This document shows, piece by piece, positions 1,490 through 21,759 of a DNA stretch of 39,258 nt. The notes under the pieces were generated by a model. The model was not told the origin of the DNA. It saw only the letters and a program-made list of their open reading frames with translations, and did no database searches. The stretch is from a virus. Made by a program: the position numbers and the translations under genes. The first letter of the stretch is position 1; each line of letters opens with the position of its first letter. The stretch is from positions 1-39,258 of IMG/VR virus record IMGVR_UViG_3300028920_000149. The stretch is one strand, 5' to 3'.

Positions 1490-1507
1490 TTTTCTCTCCT
1501 CTTGTAA

Positions 1508-1857
1508 TGGAGGTGGGGGGAATCGAACCCCCGTCCAGTAGCACATCTGCAATGGCATCTACGGTCATAGTCAGCACATTTAGTTGTCACCCTTTCTCGT
1601 CTCCGCACTGACAGGATACTTAGGGGTCACCCGCATGTTAGTGCAATCCCTCCGTCCACACGAGAAGTCCAAAAGGGACCGGCCTGATGCTTTCGTCCCT
1701 ATCCCCTATCAGACATCAGAGTAGGAACGTGACTGCTCTAAGCAGCCATTTTGTATTGGCTTTTGCCAGTTATTGTTTTGCAGGGTTTTACGAGGCCACC
1801 TGCAACCTCGAATCGCAACCAGAACTTCAAGAGCCCTGTCGATACCTTAACACCCCC
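1508..1857 (-). ncRNA. ssrA: Transfer-messenger RNA (tmRNA)
   Basis: tmRNA rescues stalled ribosomes by acting first as alanine tRNA and then as a short message. The 5' end GGGGGTG (1857-1851) pairs with the 3' CACCTCC ending at 1509, with a G-U at the third pair, the alanine identity element. The 5' half has the typical GGTATCGACAGGG, and the 3' end has a T-arm GGGGG-TTCGATT-CCCCC. The 3' CCA is not encoded. The internal message reads GGC at 1767 through TAG at 1738, giving the tag GKSQYKMAA, whose end -MAA resembles the usual -LAA/-VAA degradation tags. At 350 nt the size is normal. It lies between a strong promoter/tRNA-like gene and the GCDIH gene. No smpB is visible in the window. Confidence 0.93.
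1738..1767 (-). other. tmRNA tag reading frame (GKSQYKMAA-stop)
   Basis: Ten codons inside the tmRNA, GGC to TAG, encode GKSQYKMAA. The Gly resume codon followed by Lys resembles the GKT-type beginning of Bacillus-like tags, while the C-terminal Ala-Ala suits ClpXP/ClpAP recognition. The resume codon is inferred from this similarity; a GCA a few codons upstream is out of frame with this stop and meets a TAA at once. Confidence 0.75.
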
Positions 1858-4539: not shown

Positions 4540-4980
4540 TTAATTATCCTCCAATTTGATCTTGCACTTTTTACACTTCTTTACATGGTATTTCATCTTA
4601 CGTGCACTGTGCCTCTCACCACATTTTGGGCACACAAGAAAACCACCCGTTCTCTGATATCGGCCTCTTAGATTCGCCATCATTCTCTCTCCCTTCTTGA
4701 GTCCATCAAGGAATATGCGGGTTTTTTCTCTCCATGCCGCCAAGTCAACGGAGTTGTGGTGTCCCTCAAATGCTTCCGTCAACAAATCCACGGCCTTGTC
4801 TCGCTCCTCCTCCTCAATCTCAAGCCTGTCACAGCTATTGCAACACTCCTCTAACATCTCGACCTCTGTATTCAGCCGCTCCACCTCCTCCCGCAGTGCG
4901 TCTCGCTCGGCCTCGAGTTCGCCAACACACATGCCGCATACCCACTGCTTCTTCATGCCGTGCTTGCAGACTTCCATCAT
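4540..4980 (-). CDS. Coiled-coil protein with C-terminal zinc finger, 146 aa (cassette gene)
   Basis: Starts MMEVCKHG directly behind an SDGE element (4985-5003). A Cys-containing N terminus is followed by a coiled coil (about residues 20-65), then FLDGLKKGE near residue 95, and a C-terminal CPKCGERHSARKMKYHVKKC zinc finger. The DNA for IFLDGL (gagtccatcaaggaat) is identical to that in the gene at 6055-6420, where the protein ends soon after. This copy instead continues into the zinc finger, so it looks like a fusion of two modules. The region is GC-richer than its surroundings. Confidence 0.65.
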   Translation of the reverse strand: MMEVCKHGMKKQWVCGMCVGELEAERDALREEVERLNTEVEMLEECCNSCDRLEIEEEERDKAVDLLTEAFEGHHNSVDLAAWREKTRIFLDGLKKGERMMANLRGRYQRTGGFLVCPKCGERHSARKMKYHVKKCKKCKIKLEDN

Positions 4981-5748: not shown

Positions 5749-6061
5749 CTTTTGCCTCCCCGTCAGATTTGGCTACATTCCGTATCACTGTAAGCAAATC
5801 GGTTAGACCGTCTGAGCAGGACATTTTTTTGTATGTGCGAATGATAACATCCAAGTCTTTGCACCGCTCCTCCAGCTCCTTGATGCGCTCTACCTGCTCA
5901 TCTGATATTGCCCTCGCATCAAGTGCAAGCCGCAATGCCTTCGTGTAGTCTGCCTTCAGCCGCTCGTTCTCGTCGCTCAACAGCTCCACGCAGTTACAGT
6001 TTCCGTCCGTGTACTTGACCGCGTTGCACTCATTCAAATGCAGTTTGTCGTCTATCACCAT
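5741..6061 (-). CDS. Coiled-coil cassette protein, 106 aa, SDGE tail
   Basis: A short Cys-containing N terminus (NECNAVKYTDGNCNC) precedes a long coiled coil (about residues 25-75), including VERIKELEERCKDLD, whose DNA matches the coiled-coil part of the neighbouring Lar-like gene. It ends VAKSDGEAKDE. It starts at ATG 6061 behind SDGE copy D and overlaps the next gene by eight bases. No enzymatic motif is visible. Confidence 0.65.
   Translation of the reverse strand: MVIDDKLHLNECNAVKYTDGNCNCVELLSDENERLKADYTKALRLALDARAISDEQVERIKELEERCKDLDVIIRTYKKMSCSDGLTDLLTVIRNVAKSDGEAKDE
5755..5773 (-). repeat. SDGE element, copy C
   Basis: Exact CCTCCCCGTCAGATTTGGC on the plus strand, at the end of the 106-residue gene and just before the start at 5748. 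Confidence 0.9.
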
Positions 6062-6420
6062 CGCTCTTCCTCCCCGTCAGATTTGAGTCCATCAAGGAAT
6101 GCATGTCCGGCATCCACCGCAAACTTCTGGTTGCTGTTAGGATGCTGAATAACATATAGCAAACACTTCACAGCCCCCACCCCCACAGCCTTGTCACGTT
6201 GCTCCTGTTCCACCGCACAGCGTTCACCTTTCAACTGCTCTTTTAGCTCCTCGATCTCTTCTTTCAGTTTCTTGTTCTCTTTGTCCCTCCAGCCTATTTC
6301 CATAGCAAGGTACAGAGGAGTACCGGTATTCTCAGCAAACTTGGCAGCAGTAATCTTTCCCTCACACCACTTCGGGTACTCTGTGTTCCAGCATACTTCT
6401 TCATTCGATTTACTCATCAT
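6055..6420 (-). CDS. Coiled-coil cassette protein, about 121 aa, SDGE tail
   Basis: I choose ATG 6420 (or 6417), which overlaps the stop of the membrane peptide upstream, over the longer frame to 6453. The N-terminal part (MSKSNEEVCWNTEYPKWCEG) could bind a partner or metal; a charged coiled coil follows (KLKEEIEELKEQLKGE). The C terminus AFLDGLKSDGEEERW contains the IFLDGL-like segment shared with the gene at 4540 and the SDGE element. First gene of the GC-richer cassette run. Confidence 0.65.
   Translation of the reverse strand: MMSKSNEEVCWNTEYPKWCEGKITAAKFAENTGTPLYLAMEIGWRDKENKKLKEEIEELKEQLKGERCAVEQEQRDKAVGVGAVKCLLYVIQHPNSNQKFAVDAGHAFLDGLKSDGEEERW
6069..6087 (-). repeat. SDGE element, copy D
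   Basis: CCTCCCCGTCAGATTTGAG on the plus strand, differing from copies A-C in the last two bases. It provides the ribosome site for the start at 6061. Confidence 0.85.
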
Positions 6421-6577
6421 CTTTCTCTGACTTAAGGTAATTGAATATAACAAAATACAGTATCAAGTCCAACATGCCGTATTCGTAGACAAAGTTCTCA
6501 GACAGTGCTGAAAGTATACCAAGCAGTACTACAAAAAACAGTGTTATGCCTATCGCTTGGTAGTGTGTCTTTTTCAA
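6410..6577 (-). CDS. Small membrane protein with two hydrophobic segments, 55 aa
   Basis: TTG start at 6577 with GGAGAG six bases upstream, ending in TAA at 6410 overlapping the next start. Residues about 10-25 (AIGITLFFVVLLGIL) and 38-49 (LDLILYFVIFNYL) are hydrophobic, so it probably spans the membrane twice. It is the first gene behind the promoter at 6606-6635. A holin-like role is possible from size alone but there is no lysis gene beside it. Confidence 0.6.
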   Translation of the reverse strand: MKKTHYQAIGITLFFVVLLGILSALSENFVYEYGMLDLILYFVIFNYLKSEKDDE

Positions 6578-6751: not shown

Positions 6752-7621
6752 CTACAGTGCTGCTACCCCACTACTGCGCTTTACCACAACAGGTTCTCTC
6801 CGTACAGGTGGTACTACCCTCTTTGCCCTTTTTATCTTTTCAGCACGTATGTTTCTTTTTATAGCCTTTTTTTGCTTGTTGGTCTCTCTCTTTATCTTCC
6901 TTCTATCCCCTTCATGCAGCTTGCGCCACTTGAAACGTAGCTCATCGAAACACCACCGCTGCTTACGCCTTTTCGAGTTTGACATATTTGTTGGTCTGCG
7001 GGACCGGTACCAATACAATGCCCGTGGAATATATACACACTCACACCCGCTCTCTGCCATACAGATAGCAAGGTTGTAATCTACTGCATATTCGTAATGT
7101 AATCTCAACCCCCGTGACTGCAGATACCACGACCTTTTAAACGTCCTGAAGTGCTGTGCCTTCCACCAACCACTGTCCATAAAGGCTGAATACAGATCAG
7201 TATATTGCTCTACAGGACCTCCCCGTAGCTTACCGGTATCCATCATTACAAGTGACCAAGTAAACCCAACCTTTTTACTTCTTGCCTGCTCAGCCACTGA
7301 AGAGGTTATTGCATCCTCATATATCTGATCGTCTGAATCAAGTACACCTATTATATCTGCACTTGCCTGTGCTATCCCATAATTAGTTACAAACTGCAGC
7401 CCATGTTTTGGTGATTCTATTATACGTATCTTGTGACCTTGGTTTACTGAATTCTTCAGCAACGTTGCCTCATAATACGTCTCTCCATCCGATTCCGGGT
7501 CCATCACTACAAGCAGTTCCCAGTTCCTGTAGTTCTGGTTGCATACGCTAAGCATTGCACTAGCTATGTAAGGTGCGGTATTGTATGCTGGCATCAAAAC
7601 CGTAAAAGGGGGTTCTTTCAA
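6752..7621 (-). CDS. Family 2 glycosyltransferase, 289 aa
   Basis: TTG start at 7621 with AAAGGA upstream. The N-terminal part (FTVLMPAYNTAPYIASAMLS) is the nucleotide-sugar binding start of a GT-A fold, and VLDSDD near residue 92 is the DxD metal-binding motif. YWYRSRRPTNMS near residue 203 ends the catalytic domain. The last 65 residues are strongly basic (KRETNKQKKAIKRN...) and could bind nucleic acid or an acidic partner. Substrate is unknown; phage GT2 enzymes modify DNA bases, capsid or tail proteins, or host surface sugars. One of three glycosyltransferases here. Confidence 0.85.
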   Translation of the reverse strand: MKEPPFTVLMPAYNTAPYIASAMLSVCNQNYRNWELLVVMDPESDGETYYEATLLKNSVNQGHKIRIIESPKHGLQFVTNYGIAQASADIIGVLDSDDQIYEDAITSSVAEQARSKKVGFTWSLVMMDTGKLRGGPVEQYTDLYSAFMDSGWWKAQHFRTFKRSWYLQSRGLRLHYEYAVDYNLAICMAESGCECVYIPRALYWYRSRRPTNMSNSKRRKQRWCFDELRFKWRKLHEGDRRKIKRETNKQKKAIKRNIRAEKIKRAKRVVPPVRREPVVVKRSSGVAAL

Positions 7622-8204: not shown

Positions 8205-8459
8205 TTAATAATCTTTACCCGCATCGTATATTTCCGGCATAGTATAATCTATAGCCACAAAATTATGCACAAAGCTTGCCCACTCTGAAGACTCCCTACT
8301 TAGATCAAATATTTGCTCAGCTACATACCATACTGCCATTCTCTTACTACTTGCCCTAACAAGATATTCTTTTCCCCTAGCCAATACTTTAAAAACCCTA
8401 CCTCTAGATGCTTCACATTTTAGCTTATCTTCTATTAACTTATCTGCCGCAGTATCCAT
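8205..8459 (-). CDS. LID-motif small protein, 84 aa
   Basis: ATG 8459 overlaps the TGA of the zinc-ribbon gene upstream. The N terminus MDTAADKLIEDKLKCE is a clear LID-motif helix, followed by a small domain starting GRVFKVLARGKEYLVRASS. The conserved N terminus with a variable body suggests a sorting or attachment tag on different small proteins. Confidence 0.65.
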   Translation of the reverse strand: MDTAADKLIEDKLKCEASRGRVFKVLARGKEYLVRASSKRMAVWYVAEQIFDLSRESSEWASFVHNFVAIDYTMPEIYDAGKDY

Positions 8460-8629
8460 CACACTTGCCCCCTATTAGCTAACTGTCTTGGCATCTTGCC
8501 ACATGAAACGCAGGGTACCGCCTTGCAGTATGGACACGTTGCCTGCTTGTGGGTCAAGTTACTCCTGAAAATCTTATCACACTTGTAACAAAGGTACCTG
8601 TACTGTCCCTTGCCCCGCTCCTTAACCAT
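8459..8629 (-). CDS. Zinc-ribbon protein, 56 aa
   Basis: ATG 8629 to TGA 8459. CYKC, CPYC and CVSCG pairs with an intervening LTHKQATC form a rubredoxin-like zinc ribbon. It resembles the 45-residue protein at 15253-15390 in the RYL-x-C-Y-x-C-D-K-x-F beginning, indicating paralogues. It sits in an overlapping chain between a membrane protein and a LID-motif gene. Function unknown. Confidence 0.65.
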   Translation of the reverse strand: MVKERGKGQYRYLCYKCDKIFRSNLTHKQATCPYCKAVPCVSCGKMPRQLANRGQV

Positions 8630-9550: not shown

Positions 9551-9788
9551 CTACCGTTACCTCTCTGGCAGGTCTAGCAGGTACCCTTACCTCTACAATT
9601 TCCTTCTTCATAAAGTACGTCTCTTTTGTATCAGGATTAACTGAAGTAGTGTACTCAACCCGCCTGATATACCAACCAAATCTACAAGAAGTGAGCAGGA
9701 GCAGTACATAGAGGAGGCAAACTAAGGCCCATCCAGAGTTGAAGGAGGTTGACTCTTGATGGATTATTTTGTACTGCTCCCTACTCAT
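9504..9788 (-). CDS. Membrane protein, possible lipoprotein, 94 aa
   Basis: A hydrophobic stretch at about residues 20-34 (ALVCLLYVLLLLTSC) ends in L-T-S-C, which fits a lipobox, and is followed by a polar, acidic C-terminal domain. The preceding 19 residues are long and not strongly basic for a signal peptide, so a plain membrane anchor is equally possible. If a lipoprotein, it could be an outer-membrane spanin or a superinfection-exclusion factor, but no partner is seen. Confidence 0.6.
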   Translation of the reverse strand: MSREQYKIIHQESTSFNSGWALVCLLYVLLLLTSCRFGWYIRRVEYTTSVNPDTKETYFMKKEIVEVRVPARPAREVTVDVEDEHNEAGGEKEE

Positions 9789-10002
9789 CTTTATATTTCC
9801 TATCTGAAGGTCGCGACATCCTTGTAAGAATACTCTCGGTAAGCTTGACTGCTTCTTCGTATCTAGCGCTCTTCAACTGATCTATATCTTCTATACTAAA
9901 ATTGTTTGGGTGTCTACCCCCCTCCAAAACAGTACCTATAGTATTTACAAGATTTGCAAAGCCAATGGGGCTAACCACCTTAAGATAACTACCTACGGAC
10001 AT
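9781..10002 (-). CDS. Hypothetical protein, 73 aa
   Basis: ATG 10002 overlaps the upstream TAA (TAATG). Contains HPNNFSIEDIDQLK near residue 31, sharing NNFSI-x-D with the N termini of the tiny paralogues at 15.8-17 kb, here at an internal position. The rest is helical and charged. No family recognised. Confidence 0.6.
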   Translation of the reverse strand: MSVGSYLKVVSPIGFANLVNTIGTVLEGGRHPNNFSIEDIDQLKSARYEEAVKLTESILTRMSRPSDRKYKDE

Positions 10003-10847: not shown

Positions 10848-10926
10848 TGGTCTAGGCGGGTGGATTCGAACCACCGATCCCGTGCTTCCAAAACACGTGA
10901 GGACAACCAAACTCCTCTACGCCTAG
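10848..10926 (-). tRNA. tRNA-Pro (anticodon TGG)
   Basis: Acceptor CTAGGCG (10926-10920) pairs with CGCCTAG near the 3' end. D-arm GAGG...CCTC, anticodon arm CGTGT-TTTGGAA-GCACG with TGG in the loop, T-arm GGTGG-TTCGAAT-CCACC, discriminator A and an encoded CCA. All stems fold. UGG can read most or all Pro codons by wobble. It lies between two coding genes on the same strand and so is probably cut from a polycistronic transcript. Confidence 0.95.
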
Positions 10927-12154: not shown

Positions 12155-12168
12155 GGCATCTATATGCC
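12155..12168 (-). terminator. Small hairpin after the 1011-residue gene, weak terminator candidate
   Basis: GGCAT-ATAG-ATGCC forms a 5-bp stem directly after the stop codon, followed by AAATATATT rather than a clean T run. Its place between a gene end and the next promoter is right for a terminator, but the structure is weak. Confidence 0.3.
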
Positions 12169-15100
12169 TACCTACCCAACTCCCTAGCAGTCTTGGCCTT
12201 TTTCTGCCAGAAGGGAGTGTAGGCAAACGGAACGTCCAGCCACATCTCCTTGTCTATCTGTGACCGGAACGGCTTACTCTTAAGGTTGAAATTTTTCAGT
12301 ATCTTCCGGGCCTCAGGGGTATCCTTCACGTACAAGTCAGATTCATGGCTATCTACCTGTATGCCAGCCTTTACCAATGCACTGACTACATCATCGTCCC
12401 GCTCGGACAGCTTCTTCTCAATAAGCCCCTCCGCAGACTCTTTCTTTTTCTTACCTTTTACTTTTTTCATACCCCGCATAAACTTATCCTCTACATCCTT
12501 ATTGCCTGCATGACCTGCCCTCTTTGCCATCTTCTTCGCCGCAGTACGCATATGTGGAGTTTCGTCTGCTTCCATCTTATCTTTTATCAAACTCTCTGCA
12601 TCCGCTTTCATAGATTCCTTTCTTACCTTACGGGCACCCTTCACCAACTTCTTCATCTGCTTGGGGCTTACCGTAACAGCAACACCGTCACCCTCCAGAC
12701 TACGGTATATGCACCCCATTTTCGAGTCAGGATAAAACTTATCCTCAAGAACAGAAAGTACTGCCCACTGAGGCACCTCGCATTCTTCCTGCTCCCCAAA
12801 CCCAACCGCATCAAGACAGTACTCCCCTGAACGGTAATTTATGTACATTGTCAGATAATCATCCATGTGCATACGTATATCGTCAAGTATAGCAGAACAC
12901 TCATCGTTACTTAGCTCTGAGAACCCACCTATATCATCCCCTTTGATTTCCCCATAGTTCACCATACGCTGCACTAAAGATTTAAGCTCCTCTTTAACAG
13001 AATAATCATTCAACAACATATAAACATAAGGTTCCTTAAAATCATCGGTCTCATAATACTCAATAAGCCCATTAACATATTCCTCTGTTCTTCTCTCATA
13101 CTCTCTAACTATATCAGCGTATGCTTTATAGTTAGACCCTACGTACTCTTCTATCAAATTCAACATACGCTCACGGATACCGTCACCCCAATGCACCTCT
13201 TCAAAACACCGCCGCGTATACTCTTTTATGAGGTCTTCCCAACGCCTATCTTTTAGGATATCCCGCTTCTTCAACCCCAAAAAAGTAAGGTCTTTCCATT
13301 TCTTATCAAGCTCATAGTTTATCTCTGTTTCAAGATCAGGGTATCTCACTTCCAATAATTTTCTTTCTATCTCCATTGCAACTACAGCCTTCGACTCTTT
13401 AGACGTCTTTTGCCTGTTGTACCTGTTCAAGGCTAACTTTGATACAAACTTTATCTTTGCATCTACTAATTGCTTCAATTGTTCTTTAGTAAGCCCGTCC
13501 AACAGGTCAGTCAGTTTCTTATATGCAGGCTTACTGGGATCAACCCTGTTCAGTTTACCGTAGTCATTCCGTAACTTATCTAGCATATCTTTTGTAAATG
13601 CCCCCTTTGGAGAGGTAAGAGCTATCTCATTAAACCCATACCCTGCTTCAATCTTCTTCTCAACCTTTGCATCTATTAGGCTATCTGCAGATTCCTTTTC
13701 CATCTTGAACTTCTTAATGGACTCTTTAAGAAATACATCCACACTACTATCAGTCTGATCCATATCGTTTCCACCGAATCTTTCCATATTCTGTTTCATA
13801 TAGTTATAGACTCTTTTACGGTCATATGAATCATCCAATATATCTGCTGATACGTAGAACGTATCACCTATACTCTTAACGCTAACATCTACATTAGGAA
13901 ATTTCTTACTAACCATATCTGCAAATGCTCGAGCTCTATCCTGCTGAGAGGATTCTATAATCTCATTATCTATCAAACTCTCTGCCTTGGTTGATTCGGC
14001 AGGTATACACTTGCCCTGCTCCTGTGACCACACCTCACCCTGCTTACATACCTGTTTGGTGTTAGGGTCATTTGAGAACCTACCTGACTTACCGGACGGG
14101 TCTACAGCCCATCTACCCCCACGCATAAACGGCCTACCTTGACCCTTACCAAGACCACTACCGTCCCTACGACCACCACCGGGACCCATACCACGGCCTA
14201 CACCGCCCGGAGGACCAGTACCATCACCACCTGCTTCTTTAATCTTACTATCTATAAGCTCATCTGCTTTCATTTTGGTCTCCATACTTTCTCTTATCTT
14301 ATAGTCAACTGCTGATCTTGCCAGTGCAACCATAGCATCTGTACGCAGCCTACGCCAATTATTGTAATCGGGATAAACTGTGTATCCCCTTACTTCAGCA
14401 CTAACCCCTATACCAACAAGTATATCCCTTACCTCATTTGCATCTGGAATGCTATTCACTTCTATCTGCGGACCAACACCTTCTGTACTAGTTGACGCAG
14501 GTGCTGCTGCACTCATATCTTTCCTGATTATACTGCCCTGTTTTGCCCCCGGTAGCTTCTTTGAACTTCTCAACGTACCCTTCCCACAATTAGGGCACTT
14601 TTTACCATCACATCCGCTCTCCTGTACTGCATACCCGCAAAAGTCACAATCACAGGTATCAACAGACTCATACACTTTCTTTATTCGATAAAGTTCCATG
14701 TCTTTAGTTACCTTAAACCCACCCTGAAGCTCAGTAGACGCCTGAACTTTACTTCCCTCAAACCCATACTTAGCACCATAAGCAGTGACTACAACATAGG
14801 TATCTTTCTGGTAATTATGTGCAGTCTTAGCCGCAGCCAATACAACCGCCTCAAGATCACTGGCAGATACCCTAGACTTAACTCCCTTAAACCCAGTATC
14901 CGCAAATCGTTTCAGCTTATAGGTCTCACTACTCATCAATTCATAACTAAGCCTGCTTTCCTTTACAGACTCATGTATAAGTATAGCATCCCCATCCCAA
15001 CCCTTACGGTCTATCTGTTTCATCATATACTCAAAGTCTGCATTCTGCAGGACATAATATTCTTCCCCACGCAGATCATACGTCTCTGGATTTTTAAACT

Positions 15101-15203
15101 CCCGCACAAACCATTTTTCTATAGCGGGGTCATCTATCTGAAAGGCAACAGTATCTCCCCCATATCCGGTCATTTTTTCATCTATAAGCTCATCTGCTTT
15201 CAC
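12168..15203 (-). CDS. 1011-aa modular protein with six LID motifs
   Basis: GTG start at 15203 with GGAGA upstream. A short helix motif occurs at about residues 2-11 (KADELIDEKM), 312 (KADELIDSKI), 407 (AESLIDNEI), 506 (ADSLIDAKV), 869 (AESLIKDKM) and 924 (AEGLIEKKL), usually preceded by a K/E/S-rich run such as KES. The modules between differ. The first includes a CDFC...CPNCGKG zinc ribbon (about 185-205); the second is Gly/Arg-rich low complexity; the fourth contains LTDLLDGLTKEQLKQLVDAK and a long charged helical region; the last two are short and basic. It looks like tagged small proteins fused in a chain. Packaged head protein, scaffold or cleaved polyprotein are all conceivable; no protease or catalytic site is seen. 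Confidence 0.8.
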   Translation of the reverse strand: MKADELIDEKMTGYGGDTVAFQIDDPAIEKWFVREFKNPETYDLRGEEYYVLQNADFEYMMKQIDRKGWDGDAILIHESVKESRLSYELMSSETYKLKRFADTGFKGVKSRVSASDLEAVVLAAAKTAHNYQKDTYVVVTAYGAKYGFEGSKVQASTELQGGFKVTKDMELYRIKKVYESVDTCDCDFCGYAVQESGCDGKKCPNCGKGTLRSSKKLPGAKQGSIIRKDMSAAAPASTSTEGVGPQIEVNSIPDANEVRDILVGIGVSAEVRGYTVYPDYNNWRRLRTDAMVALARSAVDYKIRESMETKMKADELIDSKIKEAGGDGTGPPGGVGRGMGPGGGRRDGSGLGKGQGRPFMRGGRWAVDPSGKSGRFSNDPNTKQVCKQGEVWSQEQGKCIPAESTKAESLIDNEIIESSQQDRARAFADMVSKKFPNVDVSVKSIGDTFYVSADILDDSYDRKRVYNYMKQNMERFGGNDMDQTDSSVDVFLKESIKKFKMEKESADSLIDAKVEKKIEAGYGFNEIALTSPKGAFTKDMLDKLRNDYGKLNRVDPSKPAYKKLTDLLDGLTKEQLKQLVDAKIKFVSKLALNRYNRQKTSKESKAVVAMEIERKLLEVRYPDLETEINYELDKKWKDLTFLGLKKRDILKDRRWEDLIKEYTRRCFEEVHWGDGIRERMLNLIEEYVGSNYKAYADIVREYERRTEEYVNGLIEYYETDDFKEPYVYMLLNDYSVKEELKSLVQRMVNYGEIKGDDIGGFSELSNDECSAILDDIRMHMDDYLTMYINYRSGEYCLDAVGFGEQEECEVPQWAVLSVLEDKFYPDSKMGCIYRSLEGDGVAVTVSPKQMKKLVKGARKVRKESMKADAESLIKDKMEADETPHMRTAAKKMAKRAGHAGNKDVEDKFMRGMKKVKGKKKKESAEGLIEKKLSERDDDVVSALVKAGIQVDSHESDLYVKDTPEARKILKNFNLKSKPFRSQIDKEMWLDVPFAYTPFWQKKAKTARELGR
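14251..14272 (-). repeat. LID-motif DNA repeat, second copy
   Basis: The 22-nt stretch encoding KADELID is identical in the plus-strand sequence to 15181-15202, pointing to recent duplication or conversion between module starts 1 and 2. Confidence 0.85.
15181..15202 (-). repeat. LID-motif DNA repeat, first copy
   Basis: This is the partner of 14251-14272, covering the first codons of the 1011-residue gene. Confidence 0.85.
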
Positions 15204-15252: not shown

Positions 15253-15390
15253 TCACCTAGACCGCTTTAAACAGAAAGGGCATATAGCCCTTTGTGGTGT
15301 CTCTGCGGCTGATTCAAAGTACTTATCACAATTATAGCACTGGTATAAGTACCTCTGCCTTTTTCTACCCACATTAGATACTTGCCTCAT
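15253..15390 (-). CDS. Zinc-ribbon protein, 45 aa
   Basis: ATG 15390 overlaps the preceding TAA (TAATG) and follows GGGAGG. The product starts MRQVSNVGRKRQRYLYQCYNC and has CYNC...CPFC, a minimal zinc ribbon with a basic N terminus. It is a paralogue of the protein at 8459-8629. Function unknown. Confidence 0.65.
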   Translation of the reverse strand: MRQVSNVGRKRQRYLYQCYNCDKYFESAAETPQRAICPFCLKRSR

Positions 15391-15825: not shown

Positions 15826-15981
15826 CTATACCACCCCGTATCCCATTTCCTTGTTCCACAGATACCACATCATAGCAGTAGTCCACTCTTCCTCCTGTGA
15901 CGGGAAAACTGATATCCAATCACCCGTACCCTCACAGTATTCCATGTAGAAGATTACGTCCTTAATACTAAAATTGTTCAT
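15826..15981 (-). CDS. MNNFSI-family small protein 1, 51 aa
   Basis: ATG 15981 overlaps the TGA of the peptide upstream. N terminus MNNFSIKDVIFYMEYC, then EEEWTTAMMWYLWNKEMG, matching the family pattern MNNFSI-x-D-[VA] ... W-T ... K. Three paralogues lie at 16557-16973. The conserved start and W-T core with a variable middle suggest a small fold or binding module. Function unknown. Confidence 0.65.
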   Translation of the reverse strand: MNNFSIKDVIFYMEYCEGTGDWISVFPSQEEEWTTAMMWYLWNKEMGYGVV

Positions 15982-16052
15982 TCCTGATCCATATCCCTAA
16001 CTACCCTTAGAGCGGCACGTTCATCAAAGGTACAAGAGTACATTAAGTACAT
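15978..16052 (-). CDS. Putative leader-like peptide, 24 aa
   Basis: ATG 16052 follows AGGGG and ends in TGA overlapping the next ATG. The product starts MYLMYSCTFDERAALRVV. It could be a real micropeptide or a translated leader coupling expression of the MNNFSI gene. Short length keeps confidence low. Confidence 0.3.
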   Translation of the reverse strand: MYLMYSCTFDERAALRVVRDMDQE

Positions 16053-16060
16053 CCCCTACA

Positions 16061-16156
16061 TCAGGAAGGCATTATTCCTGCAAGAAAATCAGCTAAAGTA
16101 CTGGCAGTAACGCTCAGGCCCACAGTCTCATCTATCTTTATCGGTTGGTCCCGCAT
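16061..16156 (-). CDS. Putative small peptide, 31 aa
   Basis: ATG 16156 lies inside the 3' end of the preceding gene and the frame closes at TGA 16061. The product starts MRDQPIKIDETVGLSVTAS, then ADFLAGIMPS. It fills an otherwise empty stretch and reads like protein, but no family or strong ribosome site supports it. Confidence 0.3.
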   Translation of the reverse strand: MRDQPIKIDETVGLSVTASTLADFLAGIMPS

Positions 16157-16337
16157 CTTTAAGTACCCTGCGTAGCCTGTCTGAAGTAGTTATCTTTTCT
16201 ATCTGCGGTGCGGGTATATCTGCTACTGCTTTGAGGTTGTTATATTCCTCTTTGAGTTCATTGAGTAGCTTTGATTCATCCTTTGAAAGGTACCCCTCTG
16301 CAAGGTCCTTCTCCAACTGTGCCCACTTATCCAACAA
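16128..16337 (-). CDS. Coiled-coil/helical hypothetical protein, 69 aa
   Basis: TTG start at 16337 with GAAGGAGG upstream, a strong ribosome site. The product is charged and helical (LDKWAQLEKDLAEGYLSKDE) with a C-terminal SDRLRRVLKDAG. It begins a run of tiny overlapping genes after a roughly 220-base stretch without a confident gene. Confidence 0.6.
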   Translation of the reverse strand: MLDKWAQLEKDLAEGYLSKDESKLLNELKEEYNNLKAVADIPAPQIEKITTSDRLRRVLKDAGPTDKDR

Positions 16338-16556
16338 TAACCTCCTTCAAAGCAATATATGTTAGTCTCTATAGTTATTAACTCTTATTAAGTGCCCCTT
16401 TATACTATATAGCCTATAAGGTTAAGTTTATACGTAGGTGGAAAGTTGGTACGCACTTTATCTTTTCTGTCCCTGTTCAAGTTATCAAAAGTAATCAGCT
16501 AATAACATCTTCCCTACCATTTTTCTACAAAAAGCCATCCGTTGAAATTGTAGTTA
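16338..16556. other. AT-rich stretch without a confident gene
   Basis: Only very short frames exist; the best is a 20-codon GTG frame (16576-16514) with an aromatic NYNFNGWLFVEKW end but no ribosome site. An imperfect 25-bp palindrome centred on CTATATAG (16397-16421) could be an operator or weak promoter region. No terminator or RNA gene is recognised. Confidence 0.5.
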
Positions 16557-16718
16557 TCATTCTGTACATTTCCCACTATCCAGCATAACCTTGGTATAGG
16601 TTAGATGCATTATTGTCCACTCCGGTATGTAGGTACCTATCCTACTACCTCTCCAATAAACTAGAAATAGGTCTACATAAGCATAGTATAAGGCATCAAG
16701 TATACTGAAATTATTCAC
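16557..16718 (-). CDS. MNNFSI-family small protein 2, 53 aa
   Basis: GTG start at 16718 overlaps the TAG of the preceding paralogue by one base. N terminus MNNFSILDALYYAYVD, then IPEWTIMHLTYTKVMLDSG, very close in its second half to the pattern of paralogue 4. No separate ribosome site is needed if translation is coupled. Function unknown. Confidence 0.65.
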   Translation of the reverse strand: MNNFSILDALYYAYVDLFLVYWRGSRIGTYIPEWTIMHLTYTKVMLDSGKCTE

Positions 16719-16858
16719 TAAAGGAGTCCACTACGCTTTGCTATGTGTATCTTACACGCCCTAGTCCATTGGGGCATACTGGGTATTATGTCCCCCTCGA
16801 TTAAACGGTAATGACATGCCCTATACCACTTGACATCTCTAATACTAAAGTTGTTCAT
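16718..16858 (-). CDS. MNNFSI-family small protein 3, 46 aa
   Basis: ATG 16858 lies inside the last codons of paralogue 4, in another frame. N terminus MNNFSIRDVKWYRACHY, then MPQWTRACKIHIAKRSG. The shared MNNFSI and P-x-W-T signatures across different middles argue strongly that this short frame is real. Function unknown. Confidence 0.65.
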   Translation of the reverse strand: MNNFSIRDVKWYRACHYRLIEGDIIPSMPQWTRACKIHIAKRSGLL

Positions 16859-16973
16859 GCCATCCCTTATCTAGACAAAACTTATACCAGATATATGCCC
16901 CTGTCCACTCCGGTATGTCCGTCCCACCCGTACCTATATAAGCTAAAACATCTCTAATACTGAAATTATTCAT
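16845..16973 (-). CDS. MNNFSI-family small protein 4, 42 aa
   Basis: Start set at ATG 16973 because MNNFSIRDVLAYIG aligns with the other three paralogues; an in-frame extension to 17036 would overlap the upstream gene. The second half IPEWTGAYIWYKFCLDKG matches the family core. It is the first member of the tandem array in transcription order. Confidence 0.65.
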   Translation of the reverse strand: MNNFSIRDVLAYIGTGGTDIPEWTGAYIWYKFCLDKGWHEQL

Positions 16974-17223
16974 TACCTGTCCACCACTTGGGCTTTGGAA
17001 AGCGATCAGTAAACTGTATACTATCCCTACCCTCAAACTCTATATCCTCTGCCTCAGGCCAATATTTACGTATATCCTCCCCCTCAGGTAAATATGCCGC
17101 TATTATTGCCCTCTCCCAATCATCCCCAGTGTACCCTGTGCACCACCACGGTCCGGAAGGTGGAAATATAACGGGTCTATAATCCTCCTCACAGGTATAG
17201 AACCTATATCTCTTCCATGGCAT
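16966..17223 (-). CDS. Hypothetical Trp-rich protein, 85 aa
   Basis: ATG 17223, with GAGGAG upstream, is preferred over the frame back to 17256. The product starts MPWKRYRFYTCEEDYRPV and is rich in Trp and Pro, with DDWERAIIAAYLPEGEDI and a C-terminal PKPKWWTGNE. It overlaps both neighbours by 8-20 bases. No family recognised. Confidence 0.6.
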   Translation of the reverse strand: MPWKRYRFYTCEEDYRPVIFPPSGPWWCTGYTGDDWERAIIAAYLPEGEDIRKYWPEAEDIEFEGRDSIQFTDRFPKPKWWTGNE

Positions 17224-17545
17224 ATCCACACTCCTCACAAACCTCCCCACAATCATCCGGTGTCATTGGATACCCACATCTTGAGCAGAACCTATCCTCC
17301 TCCTGCACCAAAGCTGTATCACCGGTTATATACTCAAATGCCTTGACCAGATTAATATCTTCCAGACGGGATATGAGAGAACTCAGTATATGATCCCCTA
17401 CTAGAATTATCAGAAGCTTTGCCGGTATATGTATTTCCTCCTCTGATCCCTCCTTCCGTATAAACACCCCCTCCATCCCTCCGCGTGTCCAAAGTTTCCA
17501 TTCCGGATTTTTAGGTAAATCGTGTGCTGACCAACCCATATTCAT
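17204..17545 (-). CDS. Hypothetical protein with C-terminal zinc ribbon, 113 aa
   Basis: Starts MNMGWSAHDLPKNPEWKLW. A central hydrophobic helix (AKLLIILVGDHILSSLI) is followed from about residue 86 by CSRCG...CGEVCEECG, a four-to-five cysteine zinc ribbon. The gene overlaps the next one. It may bind nucleic acid, but this is inference from the ribbon alone. Confidence 0.6.
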   Translation of the reverse strand: MNMGWSAHDLPKNPEWKLWTRGGMEGVFIRKEGSEEEIHIPAKLLIILVGDHILSSLISRLEDINLVKAFEYITGDTALVQEEDRFCSRCGYPMTPDDCGEVCEECGYAMEEI

Positions 17546-17596: not shown

Positions 17597-17938
17597 TTAG
17601 TTATCCTCATCTACCCTCTCCTTTTTATCGTGCCACGCAATCATAGCAGCACAGCACATTAAGTGTGCTGAGTGTAAATTACCATCCCCCTTTGGCCCAT
17701 CATCAAGCACATTACCTACAAACATTTCTTTTAAGTGCCGCATAGCCGCACCTAAATAATACCGTCTAGCGTCTTCCTTTGTGTGCTTTTTCCAGTTATC
17801 CCTAGGATACTTACCTCCATTTTCATCGCAGTTATCGTGTAAAATCCTACACATGTCTTCTATCTCATCCCAAGGTATCAATGTCCAATCAAGCTTACCT
17901 GTATCATCCTTAATTGCCTTCATCTTAATTGCCTTCAT
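17597..17938 (-). CDS. DUF5664 / dATP-dGTP diphosphohydrolase N-domain-like protein, 113 aa
   Basis: KDDTGKLDWTLIPWDEIEDM, then KYPRDNWKK near residue 43, RRYYLGAAMRHLKEM near residue 59 and NLHSAHLMCCAAMIAW near residue 86 match the DUF5664 family, whose relatives include MazZ, the dGTP-processing enzyme of 2-aminoadenine phages. It follows the HD phosphohydrolase with a TAATG overlap, so the two are probably coexpressed. The start has a 15-bp tandem duplication. Family membership is well supported by motifs; MazZ-like activity is a hypothesis. Confidence 0.7.
   Translation of the reverse strand: MKAIKMKAIKDDTGKLDWTLIPWDEIEDMCRILHDNCDENGGKYPRDNWKKHTKEDARRYYLGAAMRHLKEMFVGNVLDDGPKGDGNLHSAHLMCCAAMIAWHDKKERVDEDN
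17909..17938 (-). repeat. 15-bp tandem duplication at the DUF5664 gene start
   Basis: ATGAAGGCAATTAAG occurs twice in a row, giving MKAIKMKAIK. AGGAG precedes only the first ATG at proper distance, so the first is the likelier start. It looks like a recent slippage event. Confidence 0.9.
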
Positions 17939-18474
17939 TAAACAAGCTCCTGATATCTACAATAAAATCGCTCTTTAGCTGCCTTAGGAACAGACTCGGT
18001 ATACCCCGTAATAAGTTCATCCTGACCCATAAACTGAAACGCCCAACCATCTATTATCTCGTCAAAAAAGGTATCAGCTTCGCTTGCAAGACATAAATCA
18101 TCCGCTCTCTGTATGATACTTTGCTCTTCTTCCGTAAGCTCTTTTAAATCAAAGGCTTCATAGATAACTCCCAAAACCTCCTGTTCTAACTTATCGTACT
18201 CGTTATTCAAAAACTTGCGTAGTGGTCTGGGCACATCGGCCATATAAACCTCTGCTGCATCATGCAATAACCCATGCATAGCTATAGGTTTAGGTACAAG
18301 CTCAGATACCTGCACCGAATGGTCTGCAACCGAATAAAACTCATTGAGGTGTCCGTTATAACGACATTTCATAGATAGTGCATGTGCTATGTCCGCAATC
18401 AATATCATTTCCGGTTTAGGATCATCATAACAAAACTTTATACCTGAATAAGTCTGCATCCAATATTTACACAT
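17938..18474 (-). CDS. HD-domain phosphohydrolase (YfbR/DatZ-like), 178 aa
   Basis: IADIAHALSMKCRYNGH near residue 26, FYSVADHSVQVSELV near residue 46 and HGLLHDAAEVYMADVPRPLR near residue 67 are the signature of small HD nucleotide phosphohydrolases related to YfbR. H71-D72 is the HD pair, and ADDLCLASEAD near residue 124 provides the later Asp. Family enzymes remove phosphate from dNMPs or dNTPs; DatZ in phage S-2L destroys dATP. Length fits. It overlaps the upstream gene by eight bases and is coupled to the DUF5664 gene. Confidence 0.8.
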   Translation of the reverse strand: MCKYWMQTYSGIKFCYDDPKPEMILIADIAHALSMKCRYNGHLNEFYSVADHSVQVSELVPKPIAMHGLLHDAAEVYMADVPRPLRKFLNNEYDKLEQEVLGVIYEAFDLKELTEEEQSIIQRADDLCLASEADTFFDEIIDGWAFQFMGQDELITGYTESVPKAAKERFYCRYQELV

Positions 18475-20958: not shown

Positions 20959-21759
20959 CTACTCTCCCTCCAATATACCCTTACCGTAATTAACTATCAA
21001 CTTATCTCTCAACTCATCTATAACATCACTAGCATTGTCTAAAGTCTCATTGTATATGACCTTACTAGCTTCTGGCTTTTCCCAATTGGGAGAAGTCAAA
21101 GGGTGCCAAAGATGCCTCAGCGTCTGCAACACGTACTTCATCCTGTGACCAAGATACTCAAGTCTTCTAGAGAACTCATCATCTTCAAGACCCCACCCAA
21201 TAAACCCCTCATGCCAACCACCGGCCTTGCAAAATAAAGACCTCTGTATAGTACAGGATAGTTTTGTCCAACCCTCACCCTGCTTCTCTACCTTACCGCT
21301 AACGGTACCTAAATTATAAGCATCTCTCCCAGAAAACACTTTATCGCTATCGTGACTACTCATTCTAAGAAACCTATAAAAATTAGAAAAGGCAAGTGCA
21401 CCGTCACTAATAGCTACATCTAAGGCAACAAAAAAATCTTTAGGTAGCGGTACATCCACATCATGAAACACTAACCAATCGTGCTTTGCAAGTGAAACAC
21501 CAACATTAAACAACCTGCTACGCTCATATGAAGCAAAACTCTTTACGATCTTATATTTACAGGTTGGTGGTATTAGGTGATTATAAAAAGTATTACCGTC
21601 TGGATGAACCATCTCTACTACAATAAGCTCTATAGGTTCCACATCCCCAGACTGCATTACCGTTTTGTAGTGTTTACCTGCCCGTCTATAACTATCCAAA
21701 AAAACCTTGAAGTACTCTACCCTGCTTATACCAAATACAGGTATTATAATAGAGAACAC
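20959..21759 (-). CDS. Family 2/7-type glycosyltransferase, 266 aa
   Basis: GTG start at 21759. FSIIIPVFGISRVEYFKVFL begins a GT-A fold, HDVDVPLPKDFF near residue 98 has the DxD metal site, and FIGWGLEDDEFSRRLEYLGH near residue 186 is the G-W-G-x-E-D-x-[DE] motif typical of galactosyltransferase-like C-terminal domains (Glyco_transf_7C type). It is the clearest catalytic candidate among the three glycosyltransferases. Acceptor unknown: DNA, capsid or tail protein. Confidence 0.8.
   Translation of the reverse strand: MFSIIIPVFGISRVEYFKVFLDSYRRAGKHYKTVMQSGDVEPIELIVVEMVHPDGNTFYNHLIPPTCKYKIVKSFASYERSRLFNVGVSLAKHDWLVFHDVDVPLPKDFFVALDVAISDGALAFSNFYRFLRMSSHDSDKVFSGRDAYNLGTVSGKVEKQGEGWTKLSCTIQRSLFCKAGGWHEGFIGWGLEDDEFSRRLEYLGHRMKYVLQTLRHLWHPLTSPNWEKPEASKVIYNETLDNASDVIDELRDKLIVNYGKGILEGE

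Follow-up and report, generated by a model that had tools for sequence, protein, structure and literature searches.

Four tandem paralogous genes for putative microproteins of 42 to 53 residues in a divergent phage genome

The window analyzed here is the whole 39,258-base stretch of the IMG/VR virus record IMGVR_UViG_3300028920_000149, whose identifiable genes lie on the minus strand. Within it, four short open reading frames (ORFs) of 42, 46, 53 and 51 codons, all on the minus strand, were confirmed at the positions given in a preliminary description of this DNA. The first, g1 (16845..16973), encodes a 42-aa paralogue (MNNFSIRDVLAYIGTGGTDIPEWTGAYIWYKFCLDKGWHEQL), and its start overlaps the 3' end of a 96-aa ORF (16966..17256, minus strand) by 8 nt. 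The second, g2 (16718..16858), encodes a basic 46-aa paralogue with a pI of 9.9, and its initial 14 nt overlap the end of g1, while the GTG start of g3 (16557..16718; 53 aa) overlaps the g2 stop codon by 1 nt (TAGTG), so that the described chaining of three genes through stop/start overlaps holds. The fourth, g4 (15826..15981), encodes an acidic 51-aa paralogue with a pI of 4.1 and stands apart from the other three, about 580 nt downstream of g3. An unrelated 69-aa ORF (16128..16337, minus strand) with a strong Shine-Dalgarno match (-13.6 kcal/mol) separates g3 from g4, and a possible 24-codon ORF (15978..16052, minus strand), an uncertain entry of the mechanical ORF table only, ends in a TGA that overlaps the ATG of g4; if real, it would couple the translation of g4. 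The 96-aa ORF upstream of g1 is not a family member, has no assigned function and had no relative in the viral contigs. The four genes are spread over three reading frames of the minus strand. Touching or overlapping junctions account for 54 of the 78 in our working gene list of the window, a fraction that is approximate because the genes of that list were chosen by hand from the mechanical ORF table; stop/start chaining is thus nothing peculiar to this family.

The window also encodes a PolA-type DNA polymerase, a UvsX-like recombinase, SbcC and SbcD subunits, a terminase large subunit and a portal protein. Because relatives of the terminase reach an identity of only about 35% in IMG/VR and 31% in known phages, the phage is, by sequence, far from anything characterized. 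The polymerase and the 292-aa head protein returned no relatives when used as scan queries, and promoter and terminator scans of the window stayed at chance level. The phage genome carries a full-length tmRNA gene (1505-1857, minus strand; tag GKSQYKMAA; ARAGORN and Rfam RF00023, 147 bits), which overlaps the first possible start of the ORF at 998-1558, and a tRNA-Pro (TGG) gene (10848-10926, minus strand). At 17597-18474 (minus strand) a dATP/dGTP diphosphohydrolase-like gene (PF18909) adjoins a YfbR-like HD nucleotidase gene, possibly forming a dNTP-pool or modified-base module, and two family-2-like glycosyltransferases are encoded at 6752-7621 and 20959-21759 (minus strand). In a 1011-aa protein (12168-15203, minus strand), a [K/S]A[D/E]xLI[D/E]xK-like motif recurs at least five times at intervals, once at the extreme N-terminus (MKADELIDEKM), with differing segments between the copies; the protein looks modular, and its only similarity to known phages lies in residues 536-597 (58-60% identity, to Rhizobium phages).

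All four predicted products begin with [M/V]NNFSI-x-D-[V/A], g3 from its GTG codon, in agreement with the shared start noted in the preliminary description. The alignment has invariant columns at M1, N2, N3, F4, S5, I6, D8 and Y12, at a loop Gly, at P, W and T, and at a late Gly. The later core was described as [IM]-P-x-W-T or E-W-T followed by a Lys; of this, P...WT is common to all four, and the Lys, which aligns in no single column, is not shared. Leave-one-out profiles built from any three members recovered the fourth among the 703 ORFs of the window with E values of 2e-9, 1e-6, 1e-4 and 6e-7, while the next-best ORF reached about 0.13 and nothing else fell below 0.1; no fifth member was found among these ORFs. 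Four in-frame start codons are followed by the pentapeptide NNFSI, and none of 100 codon-block shuffles placed any pentapeptide behind more than two. By these sequence measures, the similarity among the four is beyond chance. Two other similar pairs occur in the window, namely the small ORFs 15253-15390 and 8459-8629 (minus strand; 47% over 32 aa, E 4e-7), the first of which is Cys-rich and zinc-ribbon-like by eye, and the weakly paralogous 4540-4980 and 6055-6453 (minus strand; 29% over 84 aa, E 7e-4).

Echoes of the motif elsewhere in the window proved to be of a different kind. The strings NNFSIED in the protein at 9781-10002 and NDFSIAD in the partial gene at 1-243 are present, as previously reported, but both are internal, match by motif only and are ruled out as family members by the profile (E 0.15 and 4.3, respectively). 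Since F-S-x-x-D-h, which combines a hydrophobic staple with a capping box, commonly caps the N-terminus of helices, convergence would be enough to explain these two occurrences. A further resemblance in the 1011-aa protein, NDYSVKEEL...EVPQWA, was rejected at E 67.

The profile search proposed in the preliminary description found no homologue in the collections searched, and internal paralogy has to stand in for homologues. In the IMG/VR viral contigs, the family profile scan gave 106 pattern matches, none confirmed; three DNA-pattern matches to MNNFSIxD shared the N-terminal motif only and were discarded as chance, and a relaxed pattern that included the P-x-W core found nothing there. When all four were used as tblastn queries on 50,697 phage records with an E cutoff of 10, the only matches had an E of 3 or worse. 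Neither Pfam nor the PDB sequences gave a match at E up to 10, the viral fold-model library gave no fold match, and PHROGs returned only phrog_11377 (E 0.04 over 21 residues of g3), which does not amount to family membership. The GTDB genome contigs held no credible relative, their single match being 20 residues near the N-terminus of a 474-aa protein in a Woesearchaeota assembly (L016), which presumably is a CBS-domain/epimerase fusion; this match was rejected as chance. The profile found no member in the distantly related virus records identified by terminase or HD phosphatase, nor in three named phages, and on its own record it found all four genes and only these. Judged by these searches, the family is an orphan within the collections covered (IMG/VR, phage records, GTDB genome contigs, Pfam, PHROGs and PDB), and its conservation rests on four sequences, all from one record.

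The pattern of nucleotide differences indicates the level at which the similarity is maintained. Over the six pairwise comparisons of the four genes, codons 2-6 contain 14 differences, and 14/14 are at third positions. Because all of these differences are third-position, selection appears to act on the protein, which disfavors the repeated DNA regulatory element that the preliminary description had named as the reading that would overturn its own. In codons 1-12, pN is 0.15-0.27 against a pS of 0.63-1.36, compared with 0.41-0.56 against 0.48-0.81 in the C-terminal half; from this contrast, the first helix would be strongly constrained at the protein level and the second more weakly. Codon scores were higher in frame than in the other frames of the same DNA for all four genes, and higher than that of any of the 72 spurious plus-strand ORFs of comparable length, with small margins (g2, -0.08 bits per codon, versus -0.14 for the best spurious ORF). 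The four genes have moderate Shine-Dalgarno matches (-3.8 to -7.9, against a median of -4.3 at random sites). Since members detect each other by profile and their conserved sites vary mainly synonymously, the set behaves as a self-consistent paralogous family. The leave-one-out profiles, the third-position-only variation of NNFSI and the codon scores together lend good support to the earlier view of the four as paralogous, translated genes, and we consider a real translated family very probable on these grounds.

AlphaFold2 models of g1 (helices 6-14 and 22-36; mean pLDDT 70.5) and g4 (helices 6-19 and 30-46; mean pLDDT 62.6) suggest a pair of short helices with a variable loop between them; the models are of low confidence (pLDDT 63-71, pTM 0.35-0.37) and were built from four-row alignments. 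In both models, helix 1 begins where the capping motif predicts, at F4-S5-x-x-D8-[V/A]9, which we take to be a hydrophobic staple plus capping box. The pI values of g1, g2, g3 and g4 are 4.8, 9.9, 5.6 and 4.1, with net charges of +4.7 for g2 and -6.5 for g4. Because a range of 4.1 to 9.9 is carried on one scaffold, one shared charge-driven ligand such as DNA is argued against.

These observations can be assembled into a reading in which the four are orphan, tandem-duplicated microproteins that form a helical hairpin and whose diverged faces would bind different partners; to this chain as a whole we assign a probability of about 40%. One gene of about 45 codons would have been duplicated in tandem inside a polycistronic, translationally coupled accessory segment, and the four paralogues are, by their sequences, subject to purifying selection at the protein level that is strongest over the first 12 residues. 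Each protein is predicted to fold as two short helices, the first capped by F-S-x-x-D with S5 at the N-cap and D8 at N3, and the second beginning near the W-T of P...WT, with a loop of variable length joining them. The conserved residues would keep the hairpin, helix 1 possibly with a shared docking face, while the variable loop and helix faces may give each copy a binding partner of its own, in the simplest case a host or rival-element protein during infection, and the overlapping genes would yield similar amounts of each protein. The putative role as inhibitors of variable host targets, suggested in the preliminary description, would be compatible with a conserved scaffold of very different net charges, and binding to such targets is plausible. 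The more far-reaching proposal, of an undescribed minimal helical-hairpin family that the phage has multiplied and diversified, in chained overlapping genes, as interchangeable binders of host or defense proteins, is tentative, and we would put it at rather long odds.

Among the alternatives, the one that survives best, although we think it improbable, is that the four proteins assemble into one hetero-oligomer with a single target, duplicated two-helix subunits having diverged to pack together. The common scaffold, the aromatic-rich composition and the length of 42-53 residues would suit such an assembly, coupled genes would give near-equal amounts, and the opposite charges of g2 and g4 could pair; however, about 580 nt, including an unrelated ORF that has a strong ribosome site of its own, lie between g4 and the other three.

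Somewhat less probable still is that MNNFSIxD[V/A]xxY is an N-terminal targeting segment of packaged or localized proteins, as in the T4 internal proteins, with the remainder free to vary. The N-terminus is indeed the most constrained part, but P...WT and the late Gly are shared beyond it, and both models contain a second predicted helix. The alignment shows no evident conserved maturation-protease site, and the mature parts, as predicted, would comprise no more than about 30 residues. Because the similarity extends past the N-terminus, packaging fits less well than the hetero-oligomer.

Very improbable, in our estimation, is that the shared 5' ends represent a repeated operator in the mRNA that spans the start codons and binds a translational repressor, with the protein similarity incidental. 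The similarity is strongest around the starts, a 46-nt DNA repeat family (63-72% identity) covers three of the four, and the Ser codon is AGT in 4/4 although AGT makes up 31% of Ser codons; shared descent can explain this fixed codon. An operator does not predict that variation in codons 2-6 be wholly synonymous, Y12, P...WT and the late Gly are located well away from the start, and no other gene start of the window carries the element: a degenerate start-element search was exact only at the four starts, with three more sites at 3 mismatches versus 2.25 expected by chance. Equally improbable is a drifting, non-functional residue of a recent duplication, with which the missing homologues and the weak codon scores of small ORFs would agree, but against which stand synonymous sites near saturation with the N-terminus and W-T core kept, four open frames and a pN far below pS in codons 1-12.

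Proteins of fewer than 55 residues without a homologue are usually hard to separate from noise; here, four internal paralogues attest independently to translation and selection and point to the residues that matter. If the copies do bind different partners, as in the reading we prefer, they would show how a very small binding scaffold can be diversified in nature; otherwise, the locus is still a clean annotation case of a kind that tends to escape homology-based gene callers.

No direct precedent for tandem paralogous phage microproteins was found in the literature searched. Small phage proteins with no assigned function are very common (PMC11323111), and the four genes resemble the small accessory and host-takeover genes reviewed there in encoding proteins of fewer than 100 aa with no assigned function and in lying in dense overlapping operons. 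They are an orphan example of this common phage accessory gene type. Most such small-protein orphans are single-copy, whereas these form a four-member paralogous set in one genome segment. The nearest functional analogy, as an analogy only, is offered by the T4 internal proteins IPI, IPII and IPIII, small phage proteins with a common N-terminal capsid targeting sequence and differing remainders, which likewise form a small set with a shared N-terminal segment (PMC3012670). In the T4 pattern only the N-terminal segment is shared and the bodies are unrelated, whereas in the present family, with members of 42-53 aa, the similarity spans both predicted helices, P...WT and the late Gly are also invariant, profiles recover each member and no protease site is evident.
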